A stretch of 64,000 bases of DNA. Origin: a virus. The stretch's first letter is position 1; every line of letters starts with the position of its first letter. A model generated the notes under the pieces. It made no database searches. It saw nothing but the letters and a program-made list of their open reading frames with translations, and was not told the origin of the DNA. The DNA lies in the IMG/VR virus record IMGVR_UViG_3300030339_000003, positions 1 to 64,000 of that record; one strand, written 5' to 3'. The position numbers and the translations under genes are program-made. Shown here piece by piece: positions 6,126-34,567 of this stretch.

Positions 6126-6133
6126 ATAATAGA
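6126..6133 (-). promoter_or_regulatory. Early-type octamer promoter (TCTATTAT, minus strand)
   Basis: The minus-strand octamer TCTATTAT lies between the 6154 terminator and the 6067 start codon. It fits the pattern T-N-Y-ATTA-Y that recurs before other units. The second base departs from the best copies (TATATTAC, TACATTAC), so this is a weaker member. Confidence 0.4.
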
Positions 6134-6153
6134 CAAAAATTAAAGGGCAGATC

Positions 6154-6177
6154 GGTAGAGAGCGAAAGCTCTCTACC
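6154..6177 (-). terminator. Terminator hairpin
   Basis: A perfect 10-bp stem (ggtagagagc / gctctctacc) with a 4-base loop, lying 19 bases after the stop of the 89-residue gene. On the minus strand the U-run (CCCTTTAATTTTTG) begins several bases after the stem. Confidence 0.75.
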
Positions 6178-6196
6178 ATAAAATATATGTAATATG

Positions 6197-6466
6197 TTAT
6201 TTAAATGCTAATAACTTACGATAATCAATTGTTTCTGCTTCTAAACTAATCAAAGCTCGCTTATAATCTTCGATTTGTTTAGGGTTGGTTTCGTGGTCTG
6301 CTCTCTTTTGAAGTGCAGTTAATGAAACGGCAAAAGCGTTGTATTGCGCTTGTAACCAGGATTCATTAAGTTGGTTAGTTTCTTTCTTACGATCCAGTAG
6401 ACGTTGTTTGAACGTGTTACTTTCAGCAAGATCTTTACTGCTTGTCATTACACCGTCTACGACCAT
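6197..6466 (-). CDS. Unknown 89-residue helical protein
   Basis: Unrecognised. It is rich in Lys, Glu, Gln and Leu and probably almost all helical or coiled coil (residues 10-85). No membrane segment or Cys cluster is present. AAGGTGG, 9 bases before the ATG, supports the start. It is the last gene of the 7794-6197 unit and lies just before the 6154 terminator. Confidence 0.65.
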   Translation of the reverse strand: MVVDGVMTSSKDLAESNTFKQRLLDRKKETNQLNESWLQAQYNAFAVSLTALQKRADHETNPKQIEDYKRALISLEAETIDYRKLLAFK

Positions 6467-6477
6467 AATAAGCCACC

Positions 6478-6942
6478 TTATTGGTAAATAGCAATACCTG
6501 TAGGATTGCGGGCTAATAAAACTTTGTTTGTTTCAAAACACAATCGAGCGTCATCATAAGAATCGCTAACACGCAAGACCATAATAGGTGGCATGTGCTC
6601 ATCCGGAACTGTGCCGTTTTTCATTTGTAATAAAGATTCGGATTCTTGGAATCGACGACTAAACATATCAGAGACAACATTGATTTCCAATGAATCTATA
6701 AACTCTTTACTTAATCCTTCTAAATACGTTCTTTTCCAGATGGTTAATTTTGAAAGAATAACGTCACCGAATGCTTCAGGTGAAAGAGATGGAGAAACAT
6801 TATTAGTCAATTCTTCCATTAAGTTTGCATAGTTTATTTTGTTAGCATTAATAAAGAAATGCTTACTTAAAACTAATGAACATTCTTTACGTTCTTCTTC
6901 GGACAACGGTGGAACATATTGTTTAATATTAACGATACCCAT
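6478..6942 (-). CDS. PLT-family phage protein 1
   Basis: The ATG at 6942 is preferred over an in-frame GTG at 6954, because the resulting N-terminus (Gly-Ile-Val-Asn-Ile-Lys-Gln-Tyr-Val-Pro-Pro-Leu-Ser-Glu-Glu-Glu) aligns with the neighbouring 43-residue protein. About 154 residues. The Pro-Leu-Ser/Thr-x-Glu-Glu motif near the N-terminus is shared with three other proteins here (7073-7654, 7663-7794, 9824-10375). The rest is predicted helical and soluble. Function unknown. It overlaps or abuts the small membrane protein upstream. Confidence 0.65.
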   Translation of the reverse strand: MGIVNIKQYVPPLSEEERKECSLVLSKHFFINANKINYANLMEELTNNVSPSLSPEAFGDVILSKLTIWKRTYLEGLSKEFIDSLEINVVSDMFSRRFQESESLLQMKNGTVPDEHMPPIMVLRVSDSYDDARLCFETNKVLLARNPTGIAIYQ

Positions 6943-6944
6943 AA

Positions 6945-7073
6945 TTACATCCACCCTAATACTTTACCGATGATGATACCAATACCTGCAATACCAAAAG
7001 AGGCAAGGATAACAAAAACCCAAAATAATGCTTTAATGCCGTCTTCAAATGCTTTAGTTACAGGGTTGCTCAT
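6945..7073 (-). CDS. 42-residue single-pass membrane protein
   Basis: A short gene whose ATG overlaps the stop of the preceding gene (TAATG at 7071-7075), a typical translational-coupling arrangement. It encodes 42 residues: a short charged N-terminus (Lys7, Glu10, Asp11), then a long hydrophobic stretch (about 15-38) rich in Val, Ile, Phe and Gly, ending Gly-Trp-Met. It is probably an inner-membrane micropeptide. Function unknown. Confidence 0.65.
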   Translation of the reverse strand: MSNPVTKAFEDGIKALFWVFVILASFGIAGIGIIIGKVLGWM

Positions 7074-7654
7074 TACGCGTCCTTAAACTTGTTATCGAAA
7101 ATAGATTGTATTTCAGATATCCAGTTATTGATAATATCACGGTCAGTTTCGCTAAATTTATTAACATCCAACGGGAATGTCGGCAATTTATAAACTGCCG
7201 GCGCAGATGAAGGATGAACAATTTCTGTAGCGCGAGCAAGCAATAATTCATCTGGAATATTTTTGTAATATGCCGGATAAATGATAGTATCTAATTCACC
7301 TAACAAAAGTTTATTAGTAAAGGAATTAAAACAGATTTTCCACAATTGTTCATCATTGGTATCTTGAATCTCGAAATTTAATTTATTTACGAAATCAAGA
7401 GAACAAAGATTAAAATATTGTGTTTTCCAATTATTAAATACTTCGGATACCGCATGAGCATAATAAATTTTCATTGCGTGAATTGATAAATTGTTGGCGT
7501 CTGACATTTTGATTTGTGCAAGCGCTTTAGTTAATGCCTTACCAGCTCTGAGTTGATCTTGTTTATTCCCTGCGGTTGATACCAACCAATAGCACTGTTC
7601 GCGTTCATGTGGAGTTAACGGTAAAGTGCATAAATTAAATTTAGACGTATCCAT
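7073..7654 (-). CDS. PLT-family phage protein 2
   Basis: 193 residues, soluble, unrecognised. The N-terminus (Asn-Leu-Cys-Thr-Leu-Pro-Leu-Thr-Pro-His-Glu-Arg-Glu) has the Pro-Leu-Thr-x-x-Glu motif of its neighbours. The following ~60 residues align loosely with the 154-residue protein downstream (helix, Tyr-rich segment, Trp-Lys-Thr/Arg, then Phe-Val/Ile-Asn/Asp-x-Leu-x-Phe/Ile). This suggests duplication and divergence. It is coupled by a start/stop overlap to the 42-residue membrane protein. Confidence 0.65.
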   Translation of the reverse strand: MDTSKFNLCTLPLTPHEREQCYWLVSTAGNKQDQLRAGKALTKALAQIKMSDANNLSIHAMKIYYAHAVSEVFNNWKTQYFNLCSLDFVNKLNFEIQDTNDEQLWKICFNSFTNKLLLGELDTIIYPAYYKNIPDELLLARATEIVHPSSAPAVYKLPTFPLDVNKFSETDRDIINNWISEIQSIFDNKFKDA

Positions 7655-7662
7655 AGGTCACC

Positions 7663-7794
7663 TTATTTTAAACAATATTCAAAAAAAGTATTGTTATTAC
7701 TAAACAGTTTATTAATGGCGTGTTGATAACGAATACCATGTTCAGCAGTCAATGGAGGGAAAAATTGATTAACATTAATCGATACTTTAGACAT
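7663..7794 (-). CDS. 43-residue PLT-family microprotein
   Basis: The frame encodes 43 residues starting at the ATG at 7794, with AAGGA at a good distance upstream. Residues 7-18 (Asn-Val-Asn-Gln-Phe-Phe-Pro-Pro-Leu-Thr-Ala-Glu) match the N-terminus of the 154-residue protein at 6478. It therefore looks like a stand-alone copy of that family's N-terminal motif, or a truncated paralog. It is the first gene of the unit driven by the octamer at 7846-7853. Confidence 0.6.
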   Translation of the reverse strand: MSKVSINVNQFFPPLTAEHGIRYQHAINKLFSNNNTFFEYCLK

Positions 7795-7810
7795 TACATA
7801 TTCCTTATTA

Positions 7811-7847
7811 ACTAGAGTAAATTAAGATGGGATTAATCTACTCTAGT
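7811..7847 (-). promoter_or_regulatory. 5' leader stem-loop
   Basis: A 9-bp outer stem (actagagta / tactctagt) is continued after one mismatch by about 5 A:T pairs. It starts at the edge of the octamer promoter and ends before the AAGGA ribosome site of the 43-residue gene. There is no U-run after it on the minus strand, so it is a leader structure, not a terminator. Confidence 0.6.
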
Positions 7848-7853
7848 AATGTA
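7846..7853 (-). promoter_or_regulatory. Early-type octamer promoter (TACATTAC, minus strand)
   Basis: The minus-strand context is AACCC-TACATTAC-TAGAGTA, close to the copies at 19717 and 26045 and to the TATATTAC element reported for phiKZ early promoters. It lies 52 bases before the 7794 start codon. Confidence 0.65.
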
Positions 7854-7885
7854 GGGTTGAGATCTTTTGTATTACAACGTTTTAA

Positions 7886-8446
7886 TTATTTTGAATAAGG
7901 AAAATCATTCTTTTTGATTTTAACCATACGGCCATCGGGATGATGCCAAACGATACCTTCGATGTCACTATCTTTAAGGTATTCCATTATACCTTCGTAA
8001 TCACGCGGACCGTGCATTAACCAATGAGCGCCATGACGATAAAGAACATGCTCAGTTAAGTTTTCAGGATTAGGACCATGCCGCGTACCAATTTTTGGGC
8101 CGCATACTTCATACGTTCCATCTTCCGGATAATCGGACAGAGCTGCGATAGCTTCTTTAATAAACTTATCTTGACCTTTGGTAGGTAACACCCAGCCAGG
8201 CCAATGCCCAGTAACTGGATCTGGTTCAGGTTGCGCAGGAATAAAATCAGGTGGTGGTGTGCGACCAGTTTTTGCATCATAACGAATATAGACAATACCT
8301 TTTTCTATCAATATCGCCATACCATCGTATTTGCGCGTGGCAGTTCCTTCCCCGGCAATAACCCACTCGGCACCTTCACTGATTTCGTTATAAACTTTAC
8401 GATTACCTTCATAACTTCTTTTAAATAAAGATAAAATCTTTTTCAT
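7886..8446 (-). CDS. RNA-ligase-like nucleotidyltransferase
   Basis: A 186-residue protein with the covalent nucleotidyltransferase signature. Lys39-x-Asp41-Gly42 is the probable adenylated lysine motif. A motif-III-like block (Thr-Tyr-Glu113-Val-Cys-Gly-Pro-Lys) and motif-IV Ile-Glu163-Gly-Ile-Val-Trp follow. The motif-V block is Met-Val-Lys-Ile-Lys-Lys around 174-179. The order and spacing fit a minimal RNA-ligase catalytic domain; small phage RNA ligases of this kind are known as DUF5565-type proteins. It would seal RNA breaks using ATP, for instance after host-nuclease attack on tRNA. It lies 9 bases after the thymidylate synthase gene. Substrate is not shown by the sequence. Confidence 0.78.
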   Translation of the reverse strand: MKKILSLFKRSYEGNRKVYNEISEGAEWVIAGEGTATRKYDGMAILIEKGIVYIRYDAKTGRTPPPDFIPAQPEPDPVTGHWPGWVLPTKGQDKFIKEAIAALSDYPEDGTYEVCGPKIGTRHGPNPENLTEHVLYRHGAHWLMHGPRDYEGIMEYLKDSDIEGIVWHHPDGRMVKIKKNDFPYSK

Positions 8447-8455
8447 AACTGGCCC

Positions 8456-9502
8456 TTAAATAGCTACTGGTGCTTTGATAGGATCGTGATGGTTATAATT
8501 GATCAACTCAAAATCATCAATCGTGTAATCGAAGATAGAATCCTTTTTCTTAATATACATAAGCGGCTTTGCATATGGTTCACGAGTTAATTGCAACTTA
8601 ACTTGTTCCAGATGGTTTTGATAGATGTGCACATCAACACCATTGTAAACAAGTTCACCTGGCACCATGTTAACTTGCTGGGCAATCATTTGCGTAAGCA
8701 AAGCATATGAAGCGATGTTAAACGGTAAACCTAAGAAAGTGTCCGAACTACGCATGAGGAAGAAGCAGTTTAGTCGACGAGTGGGGATACCAGCGTCATC
8801 AAACTGTTTCTTTAATTTCTCAGGTTCTGCTATCTCGCCGTTTTCTGGATTAAGAAGCAACATGTGAACCACACCGAATTGATATTTTTTATGACGAAAC
8901 AGTTCAAAACGTTCGTACAATGACAATTCGGTAGTAGTGAACTGGAAATAGTTGTGACAAGGTTCTAATGCCATTTGATCTAACTGACCCACATTAATAG
9001 CACTGACATAAATACGACGGTTATCGGGATCGTTCTTTAACAAGTCAATTACTTTTTGAATCTGATTAGTGGAACGACGATAAACACACGCAGGAGGGTT
9101 GCCATTATCTTTCTGCATGTAACCTTCAAAATGGTAACCTTTGGATTCCAAATGGCATCTGATACGGTGTCCGGTATCATGTGTTATATAAGTGTCAACC
9201 CAATCGGTCCATTGTTTACCATAGACTGGACCCAAGTCACCATTTTTATCAGCCCATTCTCGCCAGATCTTAACCCCATTATCTTCCAGGTACTCAATGT
9301 TGGTTTCGCCTTTAAGGAACCAAAGCAGTTCATGGATGATTGAACGCAAATGAGTTTTCTTGGTAGTAACCAAAGGGAAACCATCTGCCAGATTAAAACG
9401 TAACATACGACCAAATACAGATAACGTGCCAGTACCAGTACGATCTGATTTAGGAGTACCGCTCGTTAATACATCTTCGAGTAATGCCAAATAGTTTTTC
9501 AT
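8456..9502 (-). CDS. thyA: Thymidylate synthase with two insertions
   Basis: It makes dTMP from dUMP using methylene-tetrahydrofolate. The catalytic Cys182 sits in Ala-Leu-Glu-Pro-Cys-His-Asn. The dUMP phosphate-binding Arg-Arg pair is in Asp-Asn-Arg-Arg-Ile (about 160-164). The [11 protein letters not shown] block and the Gly-Val-Asp-Val-His-Ile-Tyr-Gln-Asn block near the C-terminus are intact. At 348 residues it is about 80 longer than E. coli ThyA (264). The extra length falls in two places: about 102-143, after Gly-Lys-Gln-Trp, and about 192-245, after the Phe-Gln-Phe that follows the active Cys. The frame continues through both. The C-terminus Pro-Val-Ala-Ile is the usual ending. Confidence 0.97.
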
Positions 9503-9519
9503 TTTAAAGGTTTCCTTAA

Positions 9520-9816
9520 TTAAGCAATCATTGTTCCGAGAATATCTTTACGCAAACCCGTGGTGATTTTAAATTCACTCAGCTCATCTTTTTCTTGGTC
9601 GTAAACAAATTGTACTACTTTGATCAAAGCGTTAGGCGGGAATTTGCGTAACACATTATCAGAAATGAATTTATAATTTAAACATTTGGTTTTGGGTGTT
9701 GCTCTAAAGCGTTGGCTTATATTAACTCCTTTTGTATCTCGGATGATGATACCGGCCATATCCTTGGTAACAGAAAGATCTAATATAAGCTCAATTTCCA
9801 TTTTCTTTTTAAACAT
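9520..9816 (-). CDS. Unknown 98-residue protein
   Basis: The ATG at 9816 is chosen because AAGGTGAT lies at a proper distance; an in-frame GTG at 9822 is less likely. The protein begins Met-Phe-Lys-Lys-Lys-Met-Glu and looks like a small alpha/beta protein. No motif is recognised. Its stop and start overlap the spacing of the 183-residue gene before it, suggesting cotranslation. Confidence 0.6.
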
Positions 9817-9823
9817 GATCACC

Positions 9824-10375
9824 TTAAAAGATTAAATTATTGCCTGGAGTGGGTTCGGGTGTCGCATCTTTAAACCCTTCCATACCTTTATTAAACAATA
9901 GTTCATTATAGGCAGTGATCTTTTGTTGGATGGATGGATAGATTTCATCCAGGTTAATGTCCATGTAAAGTTTGCCTTCCTGCAAAGCGATTAACGTTGG
10001 ACCTAATTCCATATCAATCAACAATTGGCCTTTTGGTGTACCATCGTGGTTTTTAGACGAACCCGTAGTAATTTTAACAAAGACACCTTCAATTTGTTCT
10101 GGTGTCAATTGAACTGTTTTTAAGAAATCATCAACAAGGTTATCAGCTCCTGCTTGAACTTTAGCAATGCTTTCCTCAATACGCATTACGTCAAAATCAT
10201 TATGAATGCCAAAACCCAAACACGTTGCTAAAGTAAATTCATTATTAAACTTTTTAAATGAATCTTTATTAAGTTCTAACAATTCATGTTCTGCAAGTTC
10301 AACATTCATTTGCTCGATTTCTTCGGGTGTTAACGGCAGGGCAACCTGCCGTATTAAACGTTTCTTAGTTACCAT
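9824..10375 (-). CDS. PLT-family phage protein 3
   Basis: 183 residues, acidic and mostly helical. The N-terminus after a basic start is Val-Ala-Leu-Pro-Leu-Thr-Pro-Glu-Glu, the same motif as the cluster at 6478-7794. Residues 30-60 follow a similar helix pattern to the 193-residue member. No catalytic motif. Genes on both sides overlap or abut it. Function unknown. Confidence 0.62.
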   Translation of the reverse strand: MVTKKRLIRQVALPLTPEEIEQMNVELAEHELLELNKDSFKKFNNEFTLATCLGFGIHNDFDVMRIEESIAKVQAGADNLVDDFLKTVQLTPEQIEGVFVKITTGSSKNHDGTPKGQLLIDMELGPTLIALQEGKLYMDINLDEIYPSIQQKITAYNELLFNKGMEGFKDATPEPTPGNNLIF

Positions 10376-10376
10376 A

Positions 10377-10694
10377 TTAACTTAACCACCTTTCAAGGTC
10401 ACTTTCTTTGCGACAAACTAGCGTCTCAAAGATTTCAATTTCGTTGTAATAGTCTTCACTATCAACGCCGTGTTTACAACGATCGTAAATAGAGCCTTCG
10501 CTCATTTCTTCCCACGGAGTCCAAGGGTGTTTGGTTCCCCACTTGGGTTTGGTGTGAGTACGAGCCATGATGTTTTTATCGTGCTTACGAGCAAAAAGAA
10601 CTTTAGTAATCAGCTCTTTGGTTTTCTCATCAGCAGTAATAAACAGAACTTCAAGCTGTTCATCACTCATGTATTCTTTATCATTTAGTTTCAT
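10377..10694 (-). CDS. Unknown 105-residue protein
   Basis: The start at 10694 has AGGTGATC 7 bases upstream; the in-frame GTG at 10703 lacks this. It is a charged, soluble protein with a Trp-Gly-Thr-Lys-His-Pro-Trp-Thr-Pro-Trp segment in the middle and a Cys near residue 75. It ends Leu-Glu-Arg-Trp-Leu-Ser. Not recognised. It lies between two other unknown genes in the 11727-7886 unit. Confidence 0.6.
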   Translation of the reverse strand: MKLNDKEYMSDEQLEVLFITADEKTKELITKVLFARKHDKNIMARTHTKPKWGTKHPWTPWEEMSEGSIYDRCKHGVDSEDYYNEIEIFETLVCRKESDLERWLS

Positions 10695-10703
10695 AATGAT
10701 CAC

Positions 10704-11108
10704 CTAAGGTTTAATCATACGCTGCATTATTTTTACAGCCAATTGTTTATTGATAAGAGAATCCGACCCAGTATTTGAATGAGCCGTGAATTCTACTACG
10801 ATATTTTTTTGTGGATTAGGGTTAGGGTTACGTTGGACCTTTGCGCCTAAAACAATATCGGCATTTATAATCTCGTCGCCATCAACAGTGACTTTTAAGA
10901 AATTAACGTGTCGTTCACCAGTTGTCAAAAGATGAATATCTTCAAAAGTAACGGGAGGAAGATTATTAGTGCCGCTAAATTGATCGCTAATACAGTGACC
11001 GTCTTTATCGATATACAACACACCGGCGAGCTGAACACTAGCGTCAACACCTTTATATGCGCCAGCAATATCGATATCAGGTATCCCGCTTAAGTCTAAA
11101 GTTTTCAT
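10704..11108 (-). CDS. Unknown 134-residue protein
   Basis: The open frame extends upstream to 11303, but that part overlaps the exonuclease gene in another frame. The ATG at 11108 (Met-Lys-Thr-Leu-Asp-Leu), next to the exonuclease stop, is the likely start. It is a beta-rich protein with an Asn-Pro-Asn-Pro-Asn-Pro run near residue 93. No domain is recognised. The repeated Asn-Pro codons produce a telomere-like ttaggg pattern that has no separate meaning. Confidence 0.6.
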   Translation of the reverse strand: MKTLDLSGIPDIDIAGAYKGVDASVQLAGVLYIDKDGHCISDQFSGTNNLPPVTFEDIHLLTTGERHVNFLKVTVDGDEIINADIVLGAKVQRNPNPNPQKNIVVEFTAHSNTGSDSLINKQLAVKIMQRMIKP

Positions 11109-11109
11109 A

Positions 11110-11727
11110 TTAACGCTCGATGATTTGTTCAGTGGTGAGTTTGGCATTAGGGTCAGTAATGAACGCAAGTTGCAATCCATCACGTTGACAATCACCCAAT
11201 GCATTATGGTTAGCGAACTCCATACCGGTTTTAATGTAACCTTTGATTTCACCCGTTGCTTGGAAAATAGCAGTAGGGACGTCAAGGATTTCATTATAAC
11301 CAATTGGGTTCTTGATCTTTAATAACTTGCACGCATTATTCGTCCAAACATAATCAGCATGTGTACGACGACAGAACACGATAGGTTTGTTCGACATAAG
11401 CCATTTAAAGAACTCAGGTAATGACTTAGAAATACTGGTCGGGTTTTTTAATACTTCTGCAATTTGAGAAGCATTACGTTCACGCCACCACTTGCCTGTT
11501 GCTTTGTCAATATCAAACCCTAAGAAAAACTGCTCAGTTAAATCCAGATTAACATAGAAGTTAAGGTCAGGAATTTCCATCGCCAATTTAGTTTCTTCCA
11601 CACTGAAACGGTTAAACTTAAACCCGCCAAAGCTTAACAGACCAGCATCAGGTTGTAGAGATGCAGATTCGTAATCGATCACAGCAGTGTTCGCATTAGC
11701 AATAACTTGTTCTGTAGAAATAGACAT
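11110..11727 (-). CDS. DnaQ-type 3'-5' exonuclease (DEDDh)
   Basis: 205 residues. Exo motif I is Asp18-x-Glu20, motif II has Asp125 in Thr-His-Ala-Asp-Tyr-Val-Trp, and motif III has His174 and Asp179 in Asn-His-Asn-Ala-Leu-Gly-Asp-Cys-Gln-Arg-Asp. This is the RNase T/DnaQ fold with the DEDDh arrangement. Similar stand-alone phage exonucleases include T4 DexA-like and Rv2179c-like 3'-5' exoribonucleases. It could trim DNA or RNA ends or help degrade host nucleic acid. It is the first gene of its unit, with an octamer and leader stem-loop just upstream. Confidence 0.85.
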   Translation of the reverse strand: MSISTEQVIANANTAVIDYESASLQPDAGLLSFGGFKFNRFSVEETKLAMEIPDLNFYVNLDLTEQFFLGFDIDKATGKWWRERNASQIAEVLKNPTSISKSLPEFFKWLMSNKPIVFCRRTHADYVWTNNACKLLKIKNPIGYNEILDVPTAIFQATGEIKGYIKTGMEFANHNALGDCQRDGLQLAFITDPNAKLTTEQIIER

Positions 11728-11735
11728 AAAGATCC

Positions 11736-11763
11736 TTAATAAAAGAAAGTTGCACCATATTAA
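11736..11763 (-). promoter_or_regulatory. 5' leader stem-loop (weak)
   Basis: The 6-base arms ttaata (11736-11741) and tattaa (11758-11763) lie between the octamer at 11766 and the exonuclease ribosome site. It is A:T only and weak alone, but its position matches the stronger leaders elsewhere. Confidence 0.35.
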
Positions 11764-11765
11764 TA

Positions 11766-11773
11766 ATAATACA
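11766..11773 (-). promoter_or_regulatory. Early-type octamer promoter (TGTATTAT, minus strand)
   Basis: A minus-strand TGTATTAT octamer lies between the 11804 terminator and the 11727 start codon. It fits the recurring T-N-Y-ATTA-Y pattern and lacks only the preferred A/C positions. Confidence 0.45.
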
Positions 11774-11803
11774 GTGTAAAAGTGTTAAAATAAAGTTTAT
11801 ACT

Positions 11804-11831
11804 AATACTCCTACCGTGAGGTAGGAGTATT
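11804..11831 (-). terminator. Terminator hairpin
   Basis: A perfect 12-bp stem (aatactcctacc / ggtaggagtatt) with a 4-base loop, 13 bases after the stop of the gene at 11845. On the minus strand AGTATAAACTTTATTTTAAC follows, so again the U-rich run is displaced from the stem. Confidence 0.75.
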
Positions 11832-11844
11832 AAAGTATGATCAA

Positions 11845-12255: not shown

Positions 12256-12280
12256 AAAGCTTAACCCCATGAAAATAAAA

Positions 12281-12298: not shown

Positions 12299-12308
12299 TT
12301 ATTATCTG

Positions 12309-12623: not shown

Positions 12624-12630
12624 TTAAAAC

Positions 12631-17790: not shown

Positions 17791-18456
17791 TTAGTCGCGT
17801 GAATAAGGAGAATTAATATCATAAGGATGTTGATATTGTGGTCTGTTATAATTTGGCCCTTGCATTTGTTGGTTGGGTTGACCACCGCCATAAACATTTT
17901 GCGCAAACCCTGGTCCCATTGGCGCACCTTGATACGCTTGCTCTGTTTGTTGACCCCATACAACCATGTCACGAATTACAAAAGCAGAAATTTCAACCAG
18001 AGGCTCATCTACTTTGCCAGATGTGAATTCAAAATTAAATGAATTGATATAAGCTTCAACATCGACTTTATTAAAGAACCAATGAATCCTTTTGAATTCG
18101 ACAACTCGGTCAAACTTTTCTTCGAGTGCGGTAAAAATATTACGAGTTGTTAACGGCTCGCCAAACATATTTTGGTCTATAATCAAGAAAGACGACATTA
18201 ATTTAACCGGTGGCATATATGTCGGAAGTGGCGAGTGTAAACAAATTGCTGACAAGGTTGAAACTACCTCAACACCTGTTAACAATTCAAGAATACGTTT
18301 GTCATCCCAACCCATATTTGCATCAAGCTCTGCAACACAATATATGGCATCTTTACGGTTATCGATATCTGCGAATTCCATTACCAAAGTTTTGTTTAAT
18401 TGGAGATTTAGATCACCCAACTCGGGAACAGTACCCCATGAATTATTGTCAGTCAT
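17791..18456 (-). CDS. Unknown protein with Gln/Asn/Pro/Tyr-rich tail
   Basis: 221 residues. The first ~165 form a soluble domain without known motif. The last ~50 residues are low complexity (Gly-Gly-Gly-Gln-Pro-Asn-Gln-Gln-Met, Asn-Arg-Pro-Gln-Tyr-Gln-His) and probably disordered. Its start overlaps the stop of the BCS1-like ATPase by 8 bases, so the two are likely translated together. It could be a partner or substrate of that ATPase (inference). Confidence 0.62.
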   Translation of the reverse strand: MTDNNSWGTVPELGDLNLQLNKTLVMEFADIDNRKDAIYCVAELDANMGWDDKRILELLTGVEVVSTLSAICLHSPLPTYMPPVKLMSSFLIIDQNMFGEPLTTRNIFTALEEKFDRVVEFKRIHWFFNKVDVEAYINSFNFEFTSGKVDEPLVEISAFVIRDMVVWGQQTEQAYQGAPMGPGFAQNVYGGGQPNQQMQGPNYNRPQYQHPYDINSPYSRD

Positions 18457-19681
18457 TTTTAATAAACTCCTTTAATGCTAAGTTAAATTGATTGAAGTCC
18501 CATTTGTTTGCAATAACCAATTCTTGTAATTCACCACCGGTAATCTTCACACCGGCAGGTAATTCGAATTGTGCATCTGGGTACATCATGGTAATGTATT
18601 CTTTAATTTCAACATCAGTAAAGGCAGGGATAAAGATTTTCTTATCCACACGACCCGGACGTGTTAATGCTTTAGACAATTTATCGGCGATGTTAGTAGT
18701 AATGAAAATGATTTCACCACTCAATTCTTTTAACCCGTCTAATGTATTTAAAATAGTAACGATAGACACTTCATCGGTATCTACAGGTTTTTCATCTTCA
18801 ACTTTTTGTGCTCGAGTTTGTGCCCCCTTACAACTTTCAATATCTTCCAAGGTAATAATACTGTTCTTGGGTGCGCTGTAAAACGCTGCAGCGAATGTAA
18901 GATTAGTCATGGTAGATATATTTAACATAGCAATTTCACGATCGTATTCGTGCGCTACGGCTTTAATAATACTGGTCTTACCCGTTCCAGGAGGCCCATA
19001 CAAAAGAATCGTCAATTTGTATGGGATGCCGCGATCAACGTACCATTGTTTATTATTTAAAAACTTATCAATAGTTTCGATGATTTCAGCTTTAGCTGTT
19101 TTGTTAATAATAACGGAACTTAATTTACGTTTAGGCGCGGCACCTAATAAACTCCAACACACGTCTTTACCTGCAAAGGTAAATATTTCACGTTCATCGG
19201 GTAAACGCTTTTCACTAAACTCATTAAAGAAATTAACCATGATTCTTTTATTTAAAGAAACGGTTGATATGGTGATCTTTAATTTTTCTTTTGTAGATGC
19301 TTGTGATTCTAATCGACTTATGACAACACGGTACAAACGCTTTTTATAAATCATCCAATGGGTGCCTACTCCTGGGCCTAGTGCGCCAAAAGCTGACCAA
19401 GAACTATTCACTAAGCCAACGGATTTTGTAAACTTAAAACATTCTACTTTTTCAAACCATTCTAAAAAGTTCTTAAAGTTTTTGTCTGAATTACCTTCCC
19501 CGCTATTATCCATAGAAAGACGAACAACAAACATATCTTCAAATCTATTTTGAAGATATTTCGGACCTTTCCAAAAAGCACCTACAACACCAGCAGCCAA
19601 CGTGATACTAATTGTGCTACCTATTAATGGTAGTTCTTTAGCAAGTTCGTTAAACTTAGTAAACATATCAAGCAACAACAT
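18449..19681 (-). CDS. BCS1-like AAA ATPase
   Basis: 410 residues. An N-terminal hydrophobic segment (about 20-37) precedes a BCS1-type N domain (about 45-215). The AAA core has Walker A Gly-Pro-Pro-Gly-Thr-Gly-Lys-Thr-Ser (229-237), Walker B Ile-Ile-Thr-Leu-Glu-Asp (275-280), sensor Thr-Thr-Asn (328-330) and Arg-Pro-Gly-Arg (341-344). BCS1 moves folded proteins across the mitochondrial inner membrane; the job of phage and bacterial homologs is unknown. AAAGGA lies before the ATG. It is the first gene of a long unit behind a consensus octamer promoter and leader stem-loop. Confidence 0.88.
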   Translation of the reverse strand: MLLLDMFTKFNELAKELPLIGSTISITLAAGVVGAFWKGPKYLQNRFEDMFVVRLSMDNSGEGNSDKNFKNFLEWFEKVECFKFTKSVGLVNSSWSAFGALGPGVGTHWMIYKKRLYRVVISRLESQASTKEKLKITISTVSLNKRIMVNFFNEFSEKRLPDEREIFTFAGKDVCWSLLGAAPKRKLSSVIINKTAKAEIIETIDKFLNNKQWYVDRGIPYKLTILLYGPPGTGKTSIIKAVAHEYDREIAMLNISTMTNLTFAAAFYSAPKNSIITLEDIESCKGAQTRAQKVEDEKPVDTDEVSIVTILNTLDGLKELSGEIIFITTNIADKLSKALTRPGRVDKKIFIPAFTDVEIKEYITMMYPDAQFELPAGVKITGGELQELVIANKWDFNQFNLALKEFIKND

Positions 19682-19691: not shown

Positions 19692-19716
19692 TTAAATAGA
19701 GTGGTTAACTACTTAA
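19692..19716 (-). promoter_or_regulatory. 5' leader stem-loop
   Basis: The 8-base arms ttaaatag (19692-19699) and ctacttaa (19709-19716) form 8 pairs on the minus-strand RNA, one of them G:U. The structure touches the octamer at 19717 and stops next to the AAAGGA ribosome site. Confidence 0.5.
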
Positions 19717-19724
19717 GTAATATA
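19717..19724 (-). promoter_or_regulatory. Early-type octamer promoter (TATATTAC, exact)
   Basis: The minus-strand sequence AAACC-TATATTAC-TTAAG is an exact match to the TATATTAC core reported for phiKZ early promoters. It lies 36 bases before the BCS1-like start codon and just after a terminator. Confidence 0.7.
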
Positions 19725-19740
19725 GGTTTAAAAATATATA

Positions 19741-20434: not shown

Positions 20435-20442
20435 ATAATAGA
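20435..20442 (-). promoter_or_regulatory. Early-type octamer promoter candidate (TCTATTAT)
   Basis: The same minus-strand octamer TCTATTAT as at 6126, 27 bases before the 20408 start and just after the 20462 hairpin. No clear leader stem-loop follows, so this is a weaker candidate. Confidence 0.35.
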
Positions 20443-23678: not shown

Positions 23679-23720
23679 TTTACTACCCCTATGAAAATAT
23701 ATCGTGAGCTATACTTATAG

Positions 23721-23728
23721 ATAATGTA
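23721..23728 (-). promoter_or_regulatory. Early-type octamer promoter (TACATTAT, minus strand)
   Basis: The minus-strand context is AGTTC-TACATTAT-CTATAAG, one base from the best copies. It lies between the 23761 hairpin and the 23678 start codon. No convincing leader stem-loop is seen. Confidence 0.5.
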
Positions 23729-23760
23729 GAACTAAAATACTTTATACATTAACATTATAC

Positions 23761-25126: not shown

Positions 25127-25972
25127 TTACATCCAGGCAGTCAGTTCAGCAGTCGCCGCAGGAATAGCTGACACTTCGGCATCAGCAATATCTACGTTAC
25201 CATTGTTTGACCAGCTTTTGTAGAACGCCGCACCCTGAGTTGCACCGACACCAACGCCCATACCCAGGGCAGAAGCAACCACGTTAGCGATCAACGGGTT
25301 CAGTGTTTTCAGGAACGCAACTTTGTCGAACAGGTAATCGGTACCGAAGTACGCCACAGCGACGCCACCAATACCAGCGCCTACAGTTTCATACGATACA
25401 CCCGCAGATGTATAGATAGAAATACCGGCACCCAGCGCAGCAGAAACAGATGCGATAACTTTAGGTTGCAGCCAGTTGTTTTCTTCACCAGTGAAGGTTT
25501 CAGTTGGAGCTTCTACATTGGAGATTGCGTGTTTGCTACTGTTGAGGCCCAGCGCGTTCAGCAGACGGATTTCTGCTTCGGTACGTGAGGTGCCAGCTTT
25601 CAGATCTTTTTCGTATTGGGAAAATTGTGTATTCAGCATATCGACGCTCTGCATTTCTTCAGGAGTTAAGACTTCGCCATTGGCGATGCGATTATTAATT
25701 GAAGCTTGACCGGAACGAAGCGCTTTAACTTGCGCCGATGATGTTGACGTTGCTTCTTTGGCATAAAGTGCTTTCAGCGCTTTAACTGTATATTTGGTGC
25801 CCAACGCCGAATTGATTTTGTTGATGAATTCGCCATGGTGCTGAGTTTCAACATCTTCGACTAATGATGTTGCGACACTGGTATCAATAGATGCGTCGTC
25901 GATATTTTCAGCGCGCATACGAGTTACTACTGCAACAGTTTCGTTGATGATCAGTTCGAGTGGAGTTGTCAT
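25127..25972 (-). CDS. Abundant-type Ala/Gly-rich membrane protein
   Basis: 281 residues. The N-terminal ~165 residues are helical, polar and soluble. The C-terminal part has three Ala/Gly-rich hydrophobic segments (about 171-188, 195-210, 226-250) and a short acidic tail. Codons are richer in G+C than the surrounding genes; a hand count of 25201-25320 gives about 53% G+C, against about 30% at 26281-26340. It stands alone between its own octamer promoter with leader stem-loop and its own tandem hairpins, which suggests high early expression. No family is recognised. It could be a membrane-remodelling or injected protein, but this is a guess. Confidence 0.72.
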   Translation of the reverse strand: MTTPLELIINETVAVVTRMRAENIDDASIDTSVATSLVEDVETQHHGEFINKINSALGTKYTVKALKALYAKEATSTSSAQVKALRSGQASINNRIANGEVLTPEEMQSVDMLNTQFSQYEKDLKAGTSRTEAEIRLLNALGLNSSKHAISNVEAPTETFTGEENNWLQPKVIASVSAALGAGISIYTSAGVSYETVGAGIGGVAVAYFGTDYLFDKVAFLKTLNPLIANVVASALGMGVGVGATQGAAFYKSWSNNGNVDIADAEVSAIPAATAELTAWM

Positions 25973-26011: not shown

Positions 26012-26036
26012 ATAAAGATAAATACTGCATCTTTAT
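26012..26036 (-). promoter_or_regulatory. 5' leader stem-loop
   Basis: The perfect 8-base arms ataaagat (26012-26019) and atctttat (26029-26036) with a 9-base loop start 8 bases after the octamer. They lie 40 bases before the 25972 start codon. Confidence 0.55.
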
Positions 26037-26044
26037 ACACCTAA

Positions 26045-26052
26045 GTAATGTA
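26045..26052 (-). promoter_or_regulatory. Early-type octamer promoter (TACATTAC, minus strand)
   Basis: The minus-strand context is AGATC-TACATTAC-TTAGGTG, the same octamer as at 7846. It drives the single-gene unit for the Ala/Gly-rich membrane protein. Confidence 0.65.
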
Positions 26053-26101
26053 GATCTGAAAATAACTATAATCTAATTTTAAACAAATATAATAAGACGT
26101 T

Positions 26102-27442: not shown

Positions 27443-27452
27443 ACATAACTCC

Positions 27453-27479: not shown

Positions 27480-27484
27480 TATGT

Positions 27485-28947: not shown

Positions 28948-28962
28948 AACGATCCTTATAGT

Positions 28963-28984
28963 TTAGGGGGCTTTCACCCCCTAA
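28963..28984. terminator. Intergenic hairpin
   Basis: An 8-bp stem (ttaggggg / ccccctaa) between the 534-residue gene stop and the RNase HI ribosome site. It lacks a minus-strand U-run, so it may be an mRNA stability or partial termination element. Confidence 0.5.
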
Positions 28985-28993
28985 GTTTATTGA

Positions 28994-30598
28994 TTAAAAA
29001 TCAAAACCATCTTCGCTATATGGGTGACAAACAGAATTTGCCATATGCGCAAAACGATTTTCAGGTGGTAACATCAAACGGATTTGGCGAGCATGTTCTG
29101 AAATATCAAAACGACGACCAATTGTTGAAACAACATCATCCAGAATTTGATCAGCCATCGTACCTTGAATACGGCCTTTAAACAAATCTATATTGAGGTT
29201 CTCAATAATTTGTGTGCGTAAAGTATAAAAATCGCTAGCTGGGCGAGAAGCTAATGGGGGTGGAGTCATAAATGGTCGTGGACCATTGTTGTATGGGTGA
29301 TTAATGCCCGACCCGTTATCTGGTTTATAAACAAAGATTTTGTCACCTGGGGTGTAATTAGATTTCATTACAAACCCTTCGGTACTGCGAACCGCGGTAA
29401 TTTCTTGGTTATCCGTTACGCGGAATAAGTTGATGTCAAACATAGATTGAATATCGAAATCGTACGCACCATTTAAATAAATGGCACTGTTATCAGCGGT
29501 ACGATAAGACGTGTCTTTAACCGTCAAACTTTTCGCGTCTGAATTTAACGTAATCCCTTTAAGAGAAGAATTTTGAACATCAAATAAATTCAAGAACCCT
29601 TGATAGTTAAAATAGTTAAAATTGACCACATTAGAACCAATAACGCGGAACTGATGCGTATTGATATTCACGTTTTCTAATACTGAATTTTTAATAGTGC
29701 CTTGGTGTCTTGAGTTTTCAATATTACACCCAAACAGCATACTGTTAATGATATTCAAATTCTTTACAGTATGCATTGTGTGACCAAAACGGAAATTATT
29801 TTCTTTTGGTAAACGCAAGCTGCTGTTAACTAAAAGACATTTATTTACTTTCTGATGTTCGATTGAGTTATTGCCTTTAAATGCGACGTTAACCAATTCA
29901 CTATTAACTGCCCACGTTATATTAGCAATACGGCCAGCCAACAAATCGACATCAAAATAATTCCATTTATCATGACCTTCGGTGTCAATAGTCATGGACG
30001 AGTCATTGTCTAATAAAAGAATCTGATAAACAACTTTTTGGTCGCCATCAATTTTTTGTTTTAGATTATCAACCAGAGCCGACCCTGTGTCTCTGCCGAT
30101 ACCTGGAATGGTAATGGAATAGACGTACAGATCAAATTTGCATTTGAGCGGTTGTGTGTCTTTTGGGGAATATTTTTCCCGAGCGGTTTTACTGTTTGCC
30201 AGGGATTCAAATGTCCCGAACAATCTAATAAAACTGTAGAATTCCATTCCCATCTCAATGCCGCTAACAATTGGGGTAATGGTTGCACCATTGATGACAA
30301 GTTTACTTGATTTTTCATTTTCATTCAAACGTTTTTTACGCATCCAGCCTTCGGGCATTCTGAATGATAACACTTTATCCAGTTCGAGTTCGGAAATAGC
30401 TTTGAAATTGAGTTTAGCTGTTTTGATTGACTCTTCAATAACGCCCATATCGGCTATTTTATTTTCACCAAACTTTGGTTCTGCGGTTACTTTAATTTCA
30501 GTAACAGTTTCAGCAGCAACTACTTCAACTACTGGTGAGTCAATAGTAACCTTAACTTCTTTGTCAGCAACTTTAACGATTTCTTTAGACTTAGCCAT
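28994..30598 (-). CDS. Unknown protein with a parallel beta-helix-like middle
   Basis: 534 residues, unrecognised. The N-terminus is low complexity (Lys/Val/Glu/Thr rich, 1-50). Residues about 260-390 are a run of short Asn- and Ser-rich strands (Val-Lys-Asn-Leu-Asn-Ile-Ile-Asn-Ser; Ile-Lys-Asn-Ser-Val-Leu-Glu-Asn-Val-Asn-Ile), as in right-handed beta helices. The C-terminus has a Pro-rich linker (Pro-Phe-Met-Thr-Pro-Pro-Pro-Leu) and a charged helix. It sits in a replication/repair unit, yet looks more like a structural or binding protein. Confidence 0.6.
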   Translation of the reverse strand: MAKSKEIVKVADKEVKVTIDSPVVEVVAAETVTEIKVTAEPKFGENKIADMGVIEESIKTAKLNFKAISELELDKVLSFRMPEGWMRKKRLNENEKSSKLVINGATITPIVSGIEMGMEFYSFIRLFGTFESLANSKTAREKYSPKDTQPLKCKFDLYVYSITIPGIGRDTGSALVDNLKQKIDGDQKVVYQILLLDNDSSMTIDTEGHDKWNYFDVDLLAGRIANITWAVNSELVNVAFKGNNSIEHQKVNKCLLVNSSLRLPKENNFRFGHTMHTVKNLNIINSMLFGCNIENSRHQGTIKNSVLENVNINTHQFRVIGSNVVNFNYFNYQGFLNLFDVQNSSLKGITLNSDAKSLTVKDTSYRTADNSAIYLNGAYDFDIQSMFDINLFRVTDNQEITAVRSTEGFVMKSNYTPGDKIFVYKPDNGSGINHPYNNGPRPFMTPPPLASRPASDFYTLRTQIIENLNIDLFKGRIQGTMADQILDDVVSTIGRRFDISEHARQIRLMLPPENRFAHMANSVCHPYSEDGFDF

Positions 30599-30630
30599 TT
30601 AAAAACATCCTATAAAAGTATAGTGGGTAA

Positions 30631-30656
30631 TAGGCAAGAGGTTACCCTCCCACCTA
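30631..30656. terminator. Intergenic hairpin
   Basis: An 11-bp stem on the minus-strand RNA (taggcaagagg / cctcccaccta, three G:U pairs) with a 4-base loop between the genes at 30684 and 30598. A short TACTTTTATAG follows. Terminator or stability element. Confidence 0.45.
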
Positions 30657-30683
30657 TAATTTTGGGTTATTAGTTTATTAAAA

Positions 30684-30938
30684 CTACGCGAAATCGCCCA
30701 GGCGCAAACCGGCATTTAGATTAGGACTTTGAAGGAAGATGTATACCTTTTCATCACCCACGGTGCGGTAATCGTGAGGGATTTCATCCAACCATTTCAT
30801 TTCCGCTCTGCTTGAAACAACAACCAAACGGGTCAATGTTTCAAAGGTAATGAATTTAGCCACAGTACCCAACTTAGAACGAACTAAATTGATATCGGCT
30901 TCTTTACCAACAAAATGAACTTCAAAATGACTACCCAT
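30684..30938 (-). CDS. Unknown 84-residue protein
   Basis: A small soluble protein with a beta-alpha-beta start (His-Phe-Glu-Val-His-Phe-Val-Gly-Lys). It overlaps the DNA ligase stop by 8 bases, so it is translated with the ligase. A role in ligation is only guessed from position. Confidence 0.6.
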   Translation of the reverse strand: MGSHFEVHFVGKEADINLVRSKLGTVAKFITFETLTRLVVVSSRAEMKWLDEIPHDYRTVGDEKVYIFLQSPNLNAGLRLGDFA

Positions 30939-32817
30939 TGATCTTCCTTACTATATCGTTGATGGAGATTTCATTGTTTACATAATAAACAGGAATATTT
31001 AACTTTAATGCCTGCGTAGTGGATGCAGTTTCTGTGTCACTAAACCCTACAATAACACACTCTACACCTTTAACTACTCGAGGCAGTACTTCGATATCAC
31101 TTTTCAGTAACTGCTCTGCAATGAAGTTACGCGGCGCTTCAAACTTACCCGTTAATACGACTTTCTTATAACCACGAATGAACGTATCAGGACGAATCAC
31201 TAAAGCTGTCGCAAAGCGTTCAATATAACGCACACGCTTTTTATCTGTAAATGCTTTTAACAGATACATTGTTTTAGCAGGAGTGAATGTTTTCTTAATA
31301 AGTTCATGGTCTTTAATGAACTCTAAGAACTTTTCGATATTAACACAAAGATGACTGATTTCGTCTGCGGTTGATTTGCCCACTTCTTCGATATTTAACG
31401 CGTAGATAAATTGACTCAACGTCTTTTTACGGTTTTGACGAATGATCTCGTAAAAACGTGGACCGACTTGTTCCAATTCTAAACTATAAATATCTAAAGC
31501 AGTTTTAATGAACCCACGACCAGCCCACTCGGTAATGGTTTCACGACCTACGTCTTTAATATCCAACCCTTCTTTGCCTGTTGCACGAACAATGTCATTA
31601 ATGAATTGATCCGCACAATCAGCGGTATTGTTACAGGTTAATGTTGGACCAATCAAAGACACCGGACCACCACAACACGGACATACTTCAGGTAAACGCA
31701 TGCGTGGTGTGTCGGTACGATCAATGACTTCATCCAGATGCGGAACAGAGTCGCCAGACATAACAATACGGATACGATCACCTGCACCAATCTGCAAGCC
31801 TAACAACTTACCTGCGTTAAATCCATTGGCACGTTGGCATTTAGACCCAGCAATCATTACTGGTTCGTAAATAAGAGTAGGGGTAATGCGACAACGGGTT
31901 ACAGACCATTCAACATCTTTAAACCGCGTTACACCAAACAACGTATTGTATTTAAAAGCAATAGACCATTTCATTTCATCGCCCAAACGCTGACGAGTAG
32001 ACAGTTTGTTTGCTTTCATGACATAACCATCAAAAGGTTCAACCGTATTGGGTGCTTGAGTTAACAATTCTTTTTCTGTTACCAGGCGAGGAATGTCAAA
32101 CCCTTGATCGGCAAACCAATTACGAAGTTGTACACCGCTTTCAATTTTCAATAGCGGTAACACTTTAGGGTCGATCGCATAAACACTGCACGTAATCTTA
32201 CCCTTAACGCTAAAACGATTATTTAAACTACTGCGTAACCAGCCACTGATTTGATTACGTTGTTTAAAGTCTGGAGTATTCGTTGATTCTTTAAGATCTT
32301 CGATATCCAGATAAGTAAGGTGTGCTTCTGCACGAATATCAAACTTATCTACATCTTTAAGTTGTTCAATAAAAGGCGGGATATGTTTGAAGTAACTTAA
32401 CTGATGCGTGATGTTTTCACCTTCAGTTAATGTACCTTTGGTGACCAGGTGTTTTAACTTACCGAATTCATATTGAAGTTCAAGAGCCATACCGTCTAAC
32501 TTTGTTTCAATATAAACATCATTGTCAAAAGAAGCTTTTAATTCATCGTAAGCACCAAAGTCGTACGTACGATTCAAAGAAGGAAAAGGTCTAAAATGCG
32601 GAACTCTTTTCAATTCTGCTTTATTGGAAAACACAACGGTCGCTTTTTGATCTAAGTTGTATTCCCAATTAGGGTGTTCGGCCGCTAACGTATCAAAGCG
32701 GTTCTTTAACAGATCGTATTCGGAATCACTGATGATGCTTTTGTTCTCACCCCAAAACAATCCATTGTGGTAATCCAATTGCTCTTTTAAATCTGCTAAT
32801 GTGGTAAATGTGCTCAT
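30931..32817 (-). CDS. ligA: NAD+-dependent DNA ligase
   Basis: 628 residues. It seals nicks using NAD+. The Ia domain carries Asp-Ser-Glu-Tyr-Asp (31-35). The adenylated lysine is Lys106 in Thr-Lys-Leu-Asp-Gly. A four-Cys zinc finger (Cys379, Cys382, Cys395, Cys401) is followed by a helix-hairpin-helix region and a C-terminal BRCT-like domain (about 555-628, starting Lys-Lys-Val-Val-Leu-Thr-Gly-Lys). All LigA domains are present in a protein somewhat shorter than E. coli LigA (671). It lies in one unit with a HAD phosphatase, an RNase HI gene and a 2H enzyme. Confidence 0.95.
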   Translation of the reverse strand: MSTFTTLADLKEQLDYHNGLFWGENKSIISDSEYDLLKNRFDTLAAEHPNWEYNLDQKATVVFSNKAELKRVPHFRPFPSLNRTYDFGAYDELKASFDNDVYIETKLDGMALELQYEFGKLKHLVTKGTLTEGENITHQLSYFKHIPPFIEQLKDVDKFDIRAEAHLTYLDIEDLKESTNTPDFKQRNQISGWLRSSLNNRFSVKGKITCSVYAIDPKVLPLLKIESGVQLRNWFADQGFDIPRLVTEKELLTQAPNTVEPFDGYVMKANKLSTRQRLGDEMKWSIAFKYNTLFGVTRFKDVEWSVTRCRITPTLIYEPVMIAGSKCQRANGFNAGKLLGLQIGAGDRIRIVMSGDSVPHLDEVIDRTDTPRMRLPEVCPCCGGPVSLIGPTLTCNNTADCADQFINDIVRATGKEGLDIKDVGRETITEWAGRGFIKTALDIYSLELEQVGPRFYEIIRQNRKKTLSQFIYALNIEEVGKSTADEISHLCVNIEKFLEFIKDHELIKKTFTPAKTMYLLKAFTDKKRVRYIERFATALVIRPDTFIRGYKKVVLTGKFEAPRNFIAEQLLKSDIEVLPRVVKGVECVIVGFSDTETASTTQALKLNIPVYYVNNEISINDIVRKING

Positions 32818-32825
32818 GCCAACCC

Positions 32826-33482
32826 CTAGACTAACTTTTTAATATAATTATTAATATGTTCATTCAGTTTTAAAACATCTCTTGCAATGTTTTGCAAATA
32901 GAACTGAGGGAACTGATGATGCTTATCCCAAACAATCAAGTGGTCATTTTTAGGGATGACTTCTGTTTGATGGATTGGAAAGTCGTCTACCAACACATAA
33001 TGTTTATACCCTTGTGCATTCAGGTAGTCTACTTTACTTGGGTGTTCTTTAGAATTAATAACGTGAATAGATTTCCAATCAATGTCATTAAAATGTTTAT
33101 CTAAAGAATGCTTCGTGTAACGCTCACCATTGATACTGTATCCTCGATGGGTGCATACGTTCAGATTAAAGCGTGGGTCCTTGTTAATAGCCCGTAGCCA
33201 TGGCTTAAGTGCCTCATCTGGTTCTACAGTCAACATAAAGCGATCGTATTGTAAACCGTGTTCAAATACGCGCGCTTCTACTAATTTGGCGTCTTTCCCT
33301 TCAAGTGTTTTAACCGCTTTCAGGAAAGTAACATCACGGTTCATTGCGATGCCAAGAATCAAATGGTCAATCGAATCCCAAGAACTTTTGTGTTCGAGGT
33401 AATTCAACATATTGTTTCTAACATGCTTATGTGTTAAAAAAGTAAAATCATCCAGATCACAAAAGATATCAATGGGTTTCAT
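32826..33482 (-). CDS. HAD-type phosphatase, deoxyribonucleotidase-like
   Basis: 218 residues. HAD motif I is Asp9-Leu-Asp11-Asp, motif II is Thr111 in Val-Cys-Thr-His-Arg-Gly, the motif III Lys is about 150 (Ser-Lys-Val-Asp), and motif IV is Val-Asp166-Asp167-Phe-Pro. The layout is like 5'(3')-deoxyribonucleotidases, which remove phosphate from dNMPs. A helical cap of about 80 residues sits after motif I. Substrate inferred only from fold. Confidence 0.75.
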   Translation of the reverse strand: MKPIDIFCDLDDFTFLTHKHVRNNMLNYLEHKSSWDSIDHLILGIAMNRDVTFLKAVKTLEGKDAKLVEARVFEHGLQYDRFMLTVEPDEALKPWLRAINKDPRFNLNVCTHRGYSINGERYTKHSLDKHFNDIDWKSIHVINSKEHPSKVDYLNAQGYKHYVLVDDFPIHQTEVIPKNDHLIVWDKHHQFPQFYLQNIARDVLKLNEHINNYIKKLV

Positions 33483-33512
33483 AAAAAGTCCTTAAATAAA
33501 AAGACAGCATAA

Positions 33513-33542
33513 TAAGTAAAGGGGCGGCCGCCCCTTTACTTA
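33513..33542 (-). terminator. Perfect 30-base palindrome terminator
   Basis: A 15-bp perfect inverted repeat with no spacer, centred on ggcc and containing a NotI site (gcggccgc). On the minus strand it is followed by TTATGCTGTCTTTTTATTT, a displaced U-run. It lies after the stop of the 88-residue gene. As RNA it would fold into a 13-bp stem with a 4-base loop. Confidence 0.7.
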
Positions 33543-33552
33543 GTGCTTAACG

Positions 33553-33819
33553 TTATTTGATTTGTTTTAACAAAGCAGGCATAATGTTTTCAACTGATGT
33601 TTGGTAGTCTATTAAAGTATTGGTAGACAGCAGACGGTAACTTACATCGTCTGGTTTAACAATAATGGAAGCAAAAATAGAGCCCATGTGTTTTAAAGAA
33701 TAAACAACCGAACCATCACCGGTGTCTTTATTTTTATAACCGGTGACCAAAGTTGTTTGACCTTCTACTAAATTCAGAGAGTCGTCTTTAAAATAGCATA
33801 GCAGTTTCAGTTCTGGCAT
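33553..33819 (-). CDS. Unknown 88-residue protein
   Basis: A small soluble protein with Cys at residue 8. Mostly beta, with a Thr-Gly-Tyr-Lys-Asn-Lys-Asp-Thr-Gly-Asp-Gly loop. The start overlaps the lytic transglycosylase stop by 32 bases, with AAGTAGG upstream. A role in lysis or its control is possible by position only. Confidence 0.58.
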   Translation of the reverse strand: MPELKLLCYFKDDSLNLVEGQTTLVTGYKNKDTGDGSVVYSLKHMGSIFASIIVKPDDVSYRLLSTNTLIDYQTSVENIMPALLKQIK

Positions 33820-34507
33820 GAGTATTACCTACTTGAAGCTTAAAGATAAGGTTGTCCATCTTAGACTGGTTCACTAAGTATGAAACTTTCTTTTTGTTGT
33901 TGTTTACCAATTGGTTCATTTTGTTACGGAATTGTTTGACAGTAGCCACTTTCCCGTTAACAGTGTACATGTTCCAATTGCCTTTGGTAAGCTTAACGTA
34001 TTTGCTAATTTTTGCGTTGTCGTTACCTTTCAATATCTTTTCGGCACCATACAAGCCAACGAACCAACTCATATACACATCGCCGTCTGATACTGCCCTT
34101 TTGGTTTTCCTTTCAAGGTAACTGCGATTTTCTGCTAAACCTGCTGCTCCGATTAATATATTGGCTCGCTTATCGTGAACAGAACTCTTAGCAGACAATC
34201 CTAAGCGCTTAGCGTGTAATTGCACATCGTTACGCCATTGGCGGTTTGTGTATTGCATTGCCCCTTTAACATTAGAATGAGGATTAATAGTGTTTTGCCC
34301 AAAACGAGATTCTTTAAGCAAAACTGCACTTACAAGTTCGGCGGATTCACCGGTGAGACTTTCGGCCTCAATAACATATTTTTCTATTTTTGCATAAGCC
34401 TTTGCATCGGCTTTTGAAAGTGGTTGAACAGAATAGCTGGCTAGTGCAGCGCCCATCCCCACCATCATTATTAACATTCCCAAAATAAAAGATTTGATCG
34501 TAGACAT
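33788..34507 (-). CDS. Secreted or membrane-tethered lytic transglycosylase
   Basis: 239 residues. An N-terminal hydrophobic segment (about 6-24) ending Ala-Leu-Ala-Ser looks like a signal peptide or a signal-anchor. The muramidase-like core has Leu-Leu-Lys-Glu66-Ser-Arg-Phe-Gly and, further on, Lys-Gly-Ala-Met-Gln-Tyr-Thr, matching the Glu and Gly-x-Met-Gln motifs of family-1 lytic transglycosylases. It would cut peptidoglycan in the periplasm. GGAGGA precedes the ATG. It sits behind an early-type octamer promoter and not beside the spanins, unlike a usual late endolysin. Confidence 0.82.
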   Translation of the reverse strand: MSTIKSFILGMLIMMVGMGAALASYSVQPLSKADAKAYAKIEKYVIEAESLTGESAELVSAVLLKESRFGQNTINPHSNVKGAMQYTNRQWRNDVQLHAKRLGLSAKSSVHDKRANILIGAAGLAENRSYLERKTKRAVSDGDVYMSWFVGLYGAEKILKGNDNAKISKYVKLTKGNWNMYTVNGKVATVKQFRNKMNQLVNNNKKKVSYLVNQSKMDNLIFKLQVGNTHARTETAMLF

Positions 34508-34527
34508 ACGTCCTCCGTTGTTTGACC

Positions 34528-34557
34528 AGGTGTAACATCATAACTACTGTTACACCT
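34528..34557 (-). promoter_or_regulatory. 5' leader stem-loop
   Basis: A perfect 10-bp stem (aggtgtaaca / tgttacacct) with a 10-base loop, starting 2 bases after the octamer and ending 20 bases before the transglycosylase start. Confidence 0.65.
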
Positions 34558-34559
34558 AG

Positions 34560-34567
34560 ATAATATA
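34560..34567 (-). promoter_or_regulatory. Early-type octamer promoter (TATATTAT, minus strand)
   Basis: The minus-strand context is AAACC-TATATTAT-CTAGGTG, matching the 19717 copy except for the last base. It lies between the SbcC-like gene stop and the transglycosylase gene. Confidence 0.62.

Follow-up and report, generated by a model that had tools for sequence, protein, structure and literature searches.

A subset of the early operons in this phage and its relatives joins a recognizable class of early promoter to an mRNA leader predicted to fold, and our comparisons establish the promoter class, the position of the structure, its phasing to the start site, its inheritance by operon and, in one family, the covariation of a three-way junction. 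Function of the simple hairpins at the RNA level, shielding of the 5′ end, and any effect on mRNA half-life are inferred. The complete proposal, in which early promoters of the virion RNA polymerase (vRNAP) are coupled to 5′ folds that are selected operon by operon and shield early mRNA, is one that we regard, taken jointly, as evenly balanced between right and wrong.

The window, the whole stretch of DNA analyzed here, runs from base 1 to base 64000 of a virus record that is 231,366 bases long. The phage is a nucleus-forming relative of Pseudomonas phage EL (the EL group): the record encodes an RNA polymerase beta subunit (with virion and non-virion RNA polymerase sets taken together) as well as a ChmA nuclear-shell protein and the tubulin PhuZ, and a structural protein encoded at 58008-61037 shares 43 to 45% identity with proteins of FishSpeaker, EL, and RisingSun. 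Single-protein queries with this protein, the product of 25127-25972, and a 146-aa protein retrieved no relatives; alignments retrieved them. The GC content of this genome (G000) is 39.5% vs. 48% in its closest relatives (G001-G003), with which its protein identity is ~60%.

The early-promoter motif of this phage is TTTCARACCTAYATTAYYWRGGTG(+1), which resembles the published EL motif, WTTTYAAACCTACATTATY (PMC7058600). The virion RNA polymerase early promoters of phiKZ, EL, OBP, N1M2, and AR9 likewise have an AT-rich element with a TATATTAC-like core at about −10 and a purine 6 bases further on. The AR9 element has been defined as AAATATATATTAT-6N-G, and experiments in AR9, phiKZ, and phiR1-37 placed the start 6 bases past the element (PMC5312081). 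Counts of the octamer were uninformative as promoter evidence when taken alone, being no better than chance: the window contains 105 copies of TNYATTAY (79 expected) and 3 of TATATTAC (4.7 expected). Over the whole record, CTAYATTAY was found in intergenic DNA 22 times vs. 1.6 expected, and the wider motif returned 25 sites, every one of them on the minus strand. When a cross-genome motif was trained on 13 related genomes, using sequence only up to +1, it identified 249 sites on one strand, including those at 7846-34567 in the window, and 0 on the other. The base 6 positions past the octamer is conserved in these 249 sites as G (80%) or A (20%), and a G 6 bases past the element is also visible in phiKZ, AR9, and OBP. 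Judging from this conservation, early transcription should begin at the purine 6 bases after the octamer.

The first-pass annotation had proposed eight minus-strand octamers in the window as phiKZ-like promoters. All eight octamers are present where it placed them, but only five scored as members of the motif class (19.7 to 36.7 bits, leave-one-out, with flanks). All on the minus strand, these are an intergenic promoter at 7839-7869 (octamer TACATTAC, 7846-7853; predicted +1 at 7839; 27.4 bits) and promoters at 19710-19740 (octamer TATATTAC, 19717-19724; predicted +1 at 19710; 31.9 bits), 23714-23744 (octamer TACATTAT, 23721-23728; predicted +1 at 23714; 19.7 bits), 26038-26068 (octamer TACATTAC, 26045-26052; predicted +1 at 26038; 36.7 bits), and 34553-34583 (octamer TATATTAT, 34560-34567; predicted +1 at 34553; 24.3 bits). 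The open reading frame (ORF) downstream of the 19717 promoter (18449-19681) corresponds to phrog_7485, with weaker matches to clamp-loader ATPases; the 26045 promoter precedes ORF 25127-25972, and the ORF downstream of the 34560 promoter (33788-34507) is lytic-transglycosylase-like (phrog_4067, 2.6e-37). By their motif, these five sites represent an early-promoter class related to that of phiKZ. Negative motif scores ruled out the other three octamers, also on the minus strand, as early promoters of this class: TCTATTAT at 6126-6133 (−29.3 bits), TGTATTAT at 11766-11773 (−10.6 bits), and TCTATTAT at 20435-20442 (−10.3 bits).

Six of the octamers had also been described as being followed at once by a stem that ends before the ribosome site, a description that holds for 26045 and 34560, the only two of the window's five promoters with a clear hairpin in RNA folded from the predicted +1. 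The 26045 transcript would carry a 9-bp 5′ hairpin with a 7-base loop from +3 to +27 (26012-26036, minus strand), and its orthologous and paralogous leaders also bear hairpins. At 34560, a 12-bp inverted repeat (34526-34559, minus strand) starts at −6, 1 base past the octamer, and RNA from +1 forms a 6-bp stem from +1 to +22 (34532-34553) whose first pair involves the +1 base. The dyads at 7846 and 19717 do not fit the description, since with the 6-nt spacing much of each dyad lies upstream of +1 and would fall outside the mRNA. The former, a 15-bp inverted repeat with a 7-base loop (7811-7847, minus strand), starts inside the octamer at −8 and stops short of the ribosome site; its stability is −15.6 kcal/mol as a whole vs. 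−0.1 in RNA from +1, where no good hairpin is left. The latter, an 8-bp inverted repeat (TTAAGTAG...CTATTTAA; 19692-19716, minus strand), starts at −6 and is lost in RNA from +1. The 7811-7847 and 34526-34559 repeats both take in positions −6 to −1 of the promoter, bases not expected in transcripts that start at +1. No stable hairpin was found from +1 at 23721 (best, −0.3), and 11766 has nothing more than a weak 6-bp A/T repeat. Contrary to what had been claimed, the repeat at 6126, with arms ~35 bases apart, overlaps the ribosome site, its 3′ arm (AGAGGTT) including the likely Shine-Dalgarno sequence.

The presence of a clear RNA hairpin at just two of five window promoters would fit a reading in which the hairpins of the window arose by chance in AT-rich leaders and real selection is confined to a few families elsewhere in these genomes. 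So would the behavior of this genome on its own, whose 25 leaders (RNA from +1 to +40) showed no significant gain in stability over shuffles (mean z of −0.24). We nevertheless think such a reading unlikely, because the window families for which relatives exist, those of 26045 and 34560, rank first and second in structure among 23 families, across which structure varies by operon beyond chance (permutation p = 0.0002). The first-pass annotation had named a lack of stem conservation in relatives as a refutation, but relatives in both families keep stems, with sequences that cannot be aligned; within the 34560 family, for example, G001, RisingSun, and this phage have stems of unrelated sequence. 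Leaders of GroEL-like, phrog_3209, and other early genes showed no structure in the family comparison. In three related genomes (G010, G012, and G016), near-identical short leader hairpins (GATAAAGACAATCAATGTCTTTCAC; AGTAAGTAATACAAATAACTTT) precede different early genes, as if leader cassettes had been copied.

To place the structure relative to the start site, we compared 232 non-redundant leaders from related genomes with dinucleotide shuffles in windows of 32 nt. The structure excess peaked at −4 to +28 (t = −6.4; this and the other t values assume independent leaders and are hence overstated) and was gone by +20, with a slight deficit of structure at +28 to +50, over the ribosome site. Little structure was found in windows wholly within −48 to −1 (t from +1.7 to −2.6), and a further peak, at −80 to −60, fits the terminators of upstream genes. 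Pairing probability was raised at +1 to +8 and at +18 to +23 and was lowered at +10 to +15. This phased profile (t = 6.3, or 6.2 after the three-way-junction family was dropped) is the mark of a hairpin positioned by the start site. Hairpins of −9 kcal/mol or below occurred in 20 leaders vs. 4.7 in shuffles; a clear hairpin is missing from most promoters. The suggestion that structure near the 5′ end is under selection thus draws support from the excess across relatives, although the excess is not significant in the window's own genome and the same kind of window revealed none in phiKZ and AR9 leaders. Leader structure follows the promoters of the clade studied here, whereas those of phiKZ and AR9 lack it and OBP leaders give a weak signal (t = −2.5).

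We also considered whether the inverted repeats at the start site might serve a polymerase or a DNA-binding protein as DNA, and not as RNA. Such a role is suggested by an approximately twofold excess of stems starting at −6 to −1, as at 7846 and 34560 (27 vs. 13.9 in shuffles), by Watson-Crick extension of stems into −1 to −6 above expectation (72 vs. 53.9), and by nearly equal numbers of G-T and A-C mismatches in simple hairpins (13 vs. 11). Simple hairpins were only slightly more stable in the sense than in the antisense strand (t from −0.8 to −2.8). The pairing profile is phased to +1, however, and the three-way junction and ChmA folds described below make sense only in RNA, so that we judge a purely DNA-level role to be distinctly improbable. 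The extension of stems upstream could reflect a DNA-level function, transcripts reading through from upstream, or initiation further upstream at some promoters; in the three-way-junction family, P1 could be extended by 4 to 6 bp upstream of +1 in 6 of the 12 leaders examined, with two near-identical pairs among them. Promoters of the N4 virion RNA polymerase contain a hairpin upstream of +1. They resemble the present sites in having inverted repeats near a phage early start, but the structure excess reported here lies mainly downstream of +1.

Two families whose octamers lie outside the window also pair the first transcribed base. In the ChmA leader (octamer at position 128840 of the G000 record), mean pairing of +1 to +3 was 0.75 vs. 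0.41 in shuffles (n = 11), and the pattern was seen in most of these leaders. In the phrog_13587 leader (octamer at record position 170039 of G000; leaders L171-L200), unconstrained folding produced a three-way junction in many phages, with a P1 helix that takes in the first transcribed base. The gene product, the 146-aa protein mentioned above, had no convincing match in Pfam or PDB. In an alignment of 19 leaders, hand-padded and fitted to the structure because MAFFT misaligned the helices of the raw leaders, 97.6% of cells were paired, double changes were present in 14 of 15 pairs, and covariation was 0.777 vs. 0.299 when shuffled (0/500) and ≤0.157 in slid registers. Four Vibrio-phage leaders in this alignment were assigned no P1, and P1 was set at +1 in EL and G004 against their free-folding preference; P1 starts at +3 in leader L175, and its partner lies 14 bases further on in L173. 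The junction is an RNA structure and ranges over EL-like and Klebsiella jumbo phages and, with P2 and P3 but no P1, those of Vibrio. Rfam families likewise include covarying structured leader RNAs, but the junction matches none of them: the junction loci had no Rfam match at E values up to 1, and the window had none at the gathering score. Titles and abstracts in the open-licence PubMed Central literature yielded no description of the leader structures. The phrog_13587 junction is accordingly presented as a candidate RNA family, apparently undescribed.

Intrinsic termination was rejected as a general explanation for the leader hairpins, which have no U tract in general: the U fraction after leader stems was 0.35 vs. 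0.30 in background, and at least 5 U in 8 followed 11 of 65 stems. The annotation of Klebsiella phage Miami treats P3 with its U run as a terminator, and U runs follow some Vibrio-phage P3 hairpins; together with the operon-specific distribution of structure, these cases point toward regulation, through attenuation or through binding by a ligand or by a protein of phage or host, in place of general protection, with the phrog_13587 leader as an attenuator or autoregulatory site. The general lack of U tracts, which extends to most EL-like P3 helices, and the absence of stem sequences common to the simple-hairpin leaders speak against this, and we hold regulation to be possible but doubtful.

Since the 5′ fold is clear of the ribosome site and lacks a U tract, it most resembles the 5′ stem-loops that slow decay, and protection of the early mRNA 5′ end is, by analogy, its likeliest role. 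Stem-loops at the 5′ terminus stabilize bacterial and phage mRNAs such as those of ompA, T4, and T7. In those mRNAs, too, the stem lies a few bases from the 5′ end and outside the ribosome site, as would, from the predicted +1, the stems at 34560 (+1) and 26045 (+3), in the three-way junction, and in the ChmA leader, though not those of many other leaders; the present structures differ in standing downstream of a phage multisubunit RNA polymerase promoter and, in one family, in forming a three-way junction. Under the protective model, the virion RNA polymerase that this EL-like phage injects would use the five window sites and their counterparts as early promoters, and in a subset of the clade's early leaders selection would have favored immediate folding of the 5′ end. 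The commonest fold would be a simple hairpin pairing about +1 to +8 with about +18 to +24, kept for each operon despite change in stem sequence, while in the ChmA and phrog_13587 families the helix would include the first base. Finishing before the ribosome site, the fold would most probably shield the 5′ end from 5′-end-dependent decay (RppH, RNase E) and thereby prolong the life of chosen early mRNAs. Roles for the stems in start-site choice or capped-end handling, also raised by the first-pass annotation, found nothing in their support here. Early 5′ ends of AR9 respond poorly to a 5′-monophosphate-specific exonuclease (PMC5312081), a result that does not support shielding because AR9 is without leader structure; two 5′ UTR motifs without known function have also been reported in AR9 (PMC5312081).

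A broader question is how the earliest messages of giant nucleus-forming phages survive in the host. The phiKZ protein Dip blocks host RNase E, and tblastn searches of the 13 genomes gave no convincing match to Dip. If protection is indeed their role, folded 5′ ends would solve through RNA the problem that phiKZ meets with Dip, and would explain why structure is found on only some early operons; natural compensatory variants among the leaders provide a ready test set. A more speculative possibility, which we advance tentatively, is that in EL-like, Vibrio Gorgonvirinae, and Klebsiella Miami-like phages the fold that captures the first transcribed bases may be a 5′-end code setting the fate of vRNAP transcripts, with the phrog_13587 junction a regulatory RNA new to databases. 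Such a code would mark chosen early mRNAs, including, in the EL group, that of ChmA, and would govern how stable they are, how they are translated, or how they are handled close to the phage nucleus.
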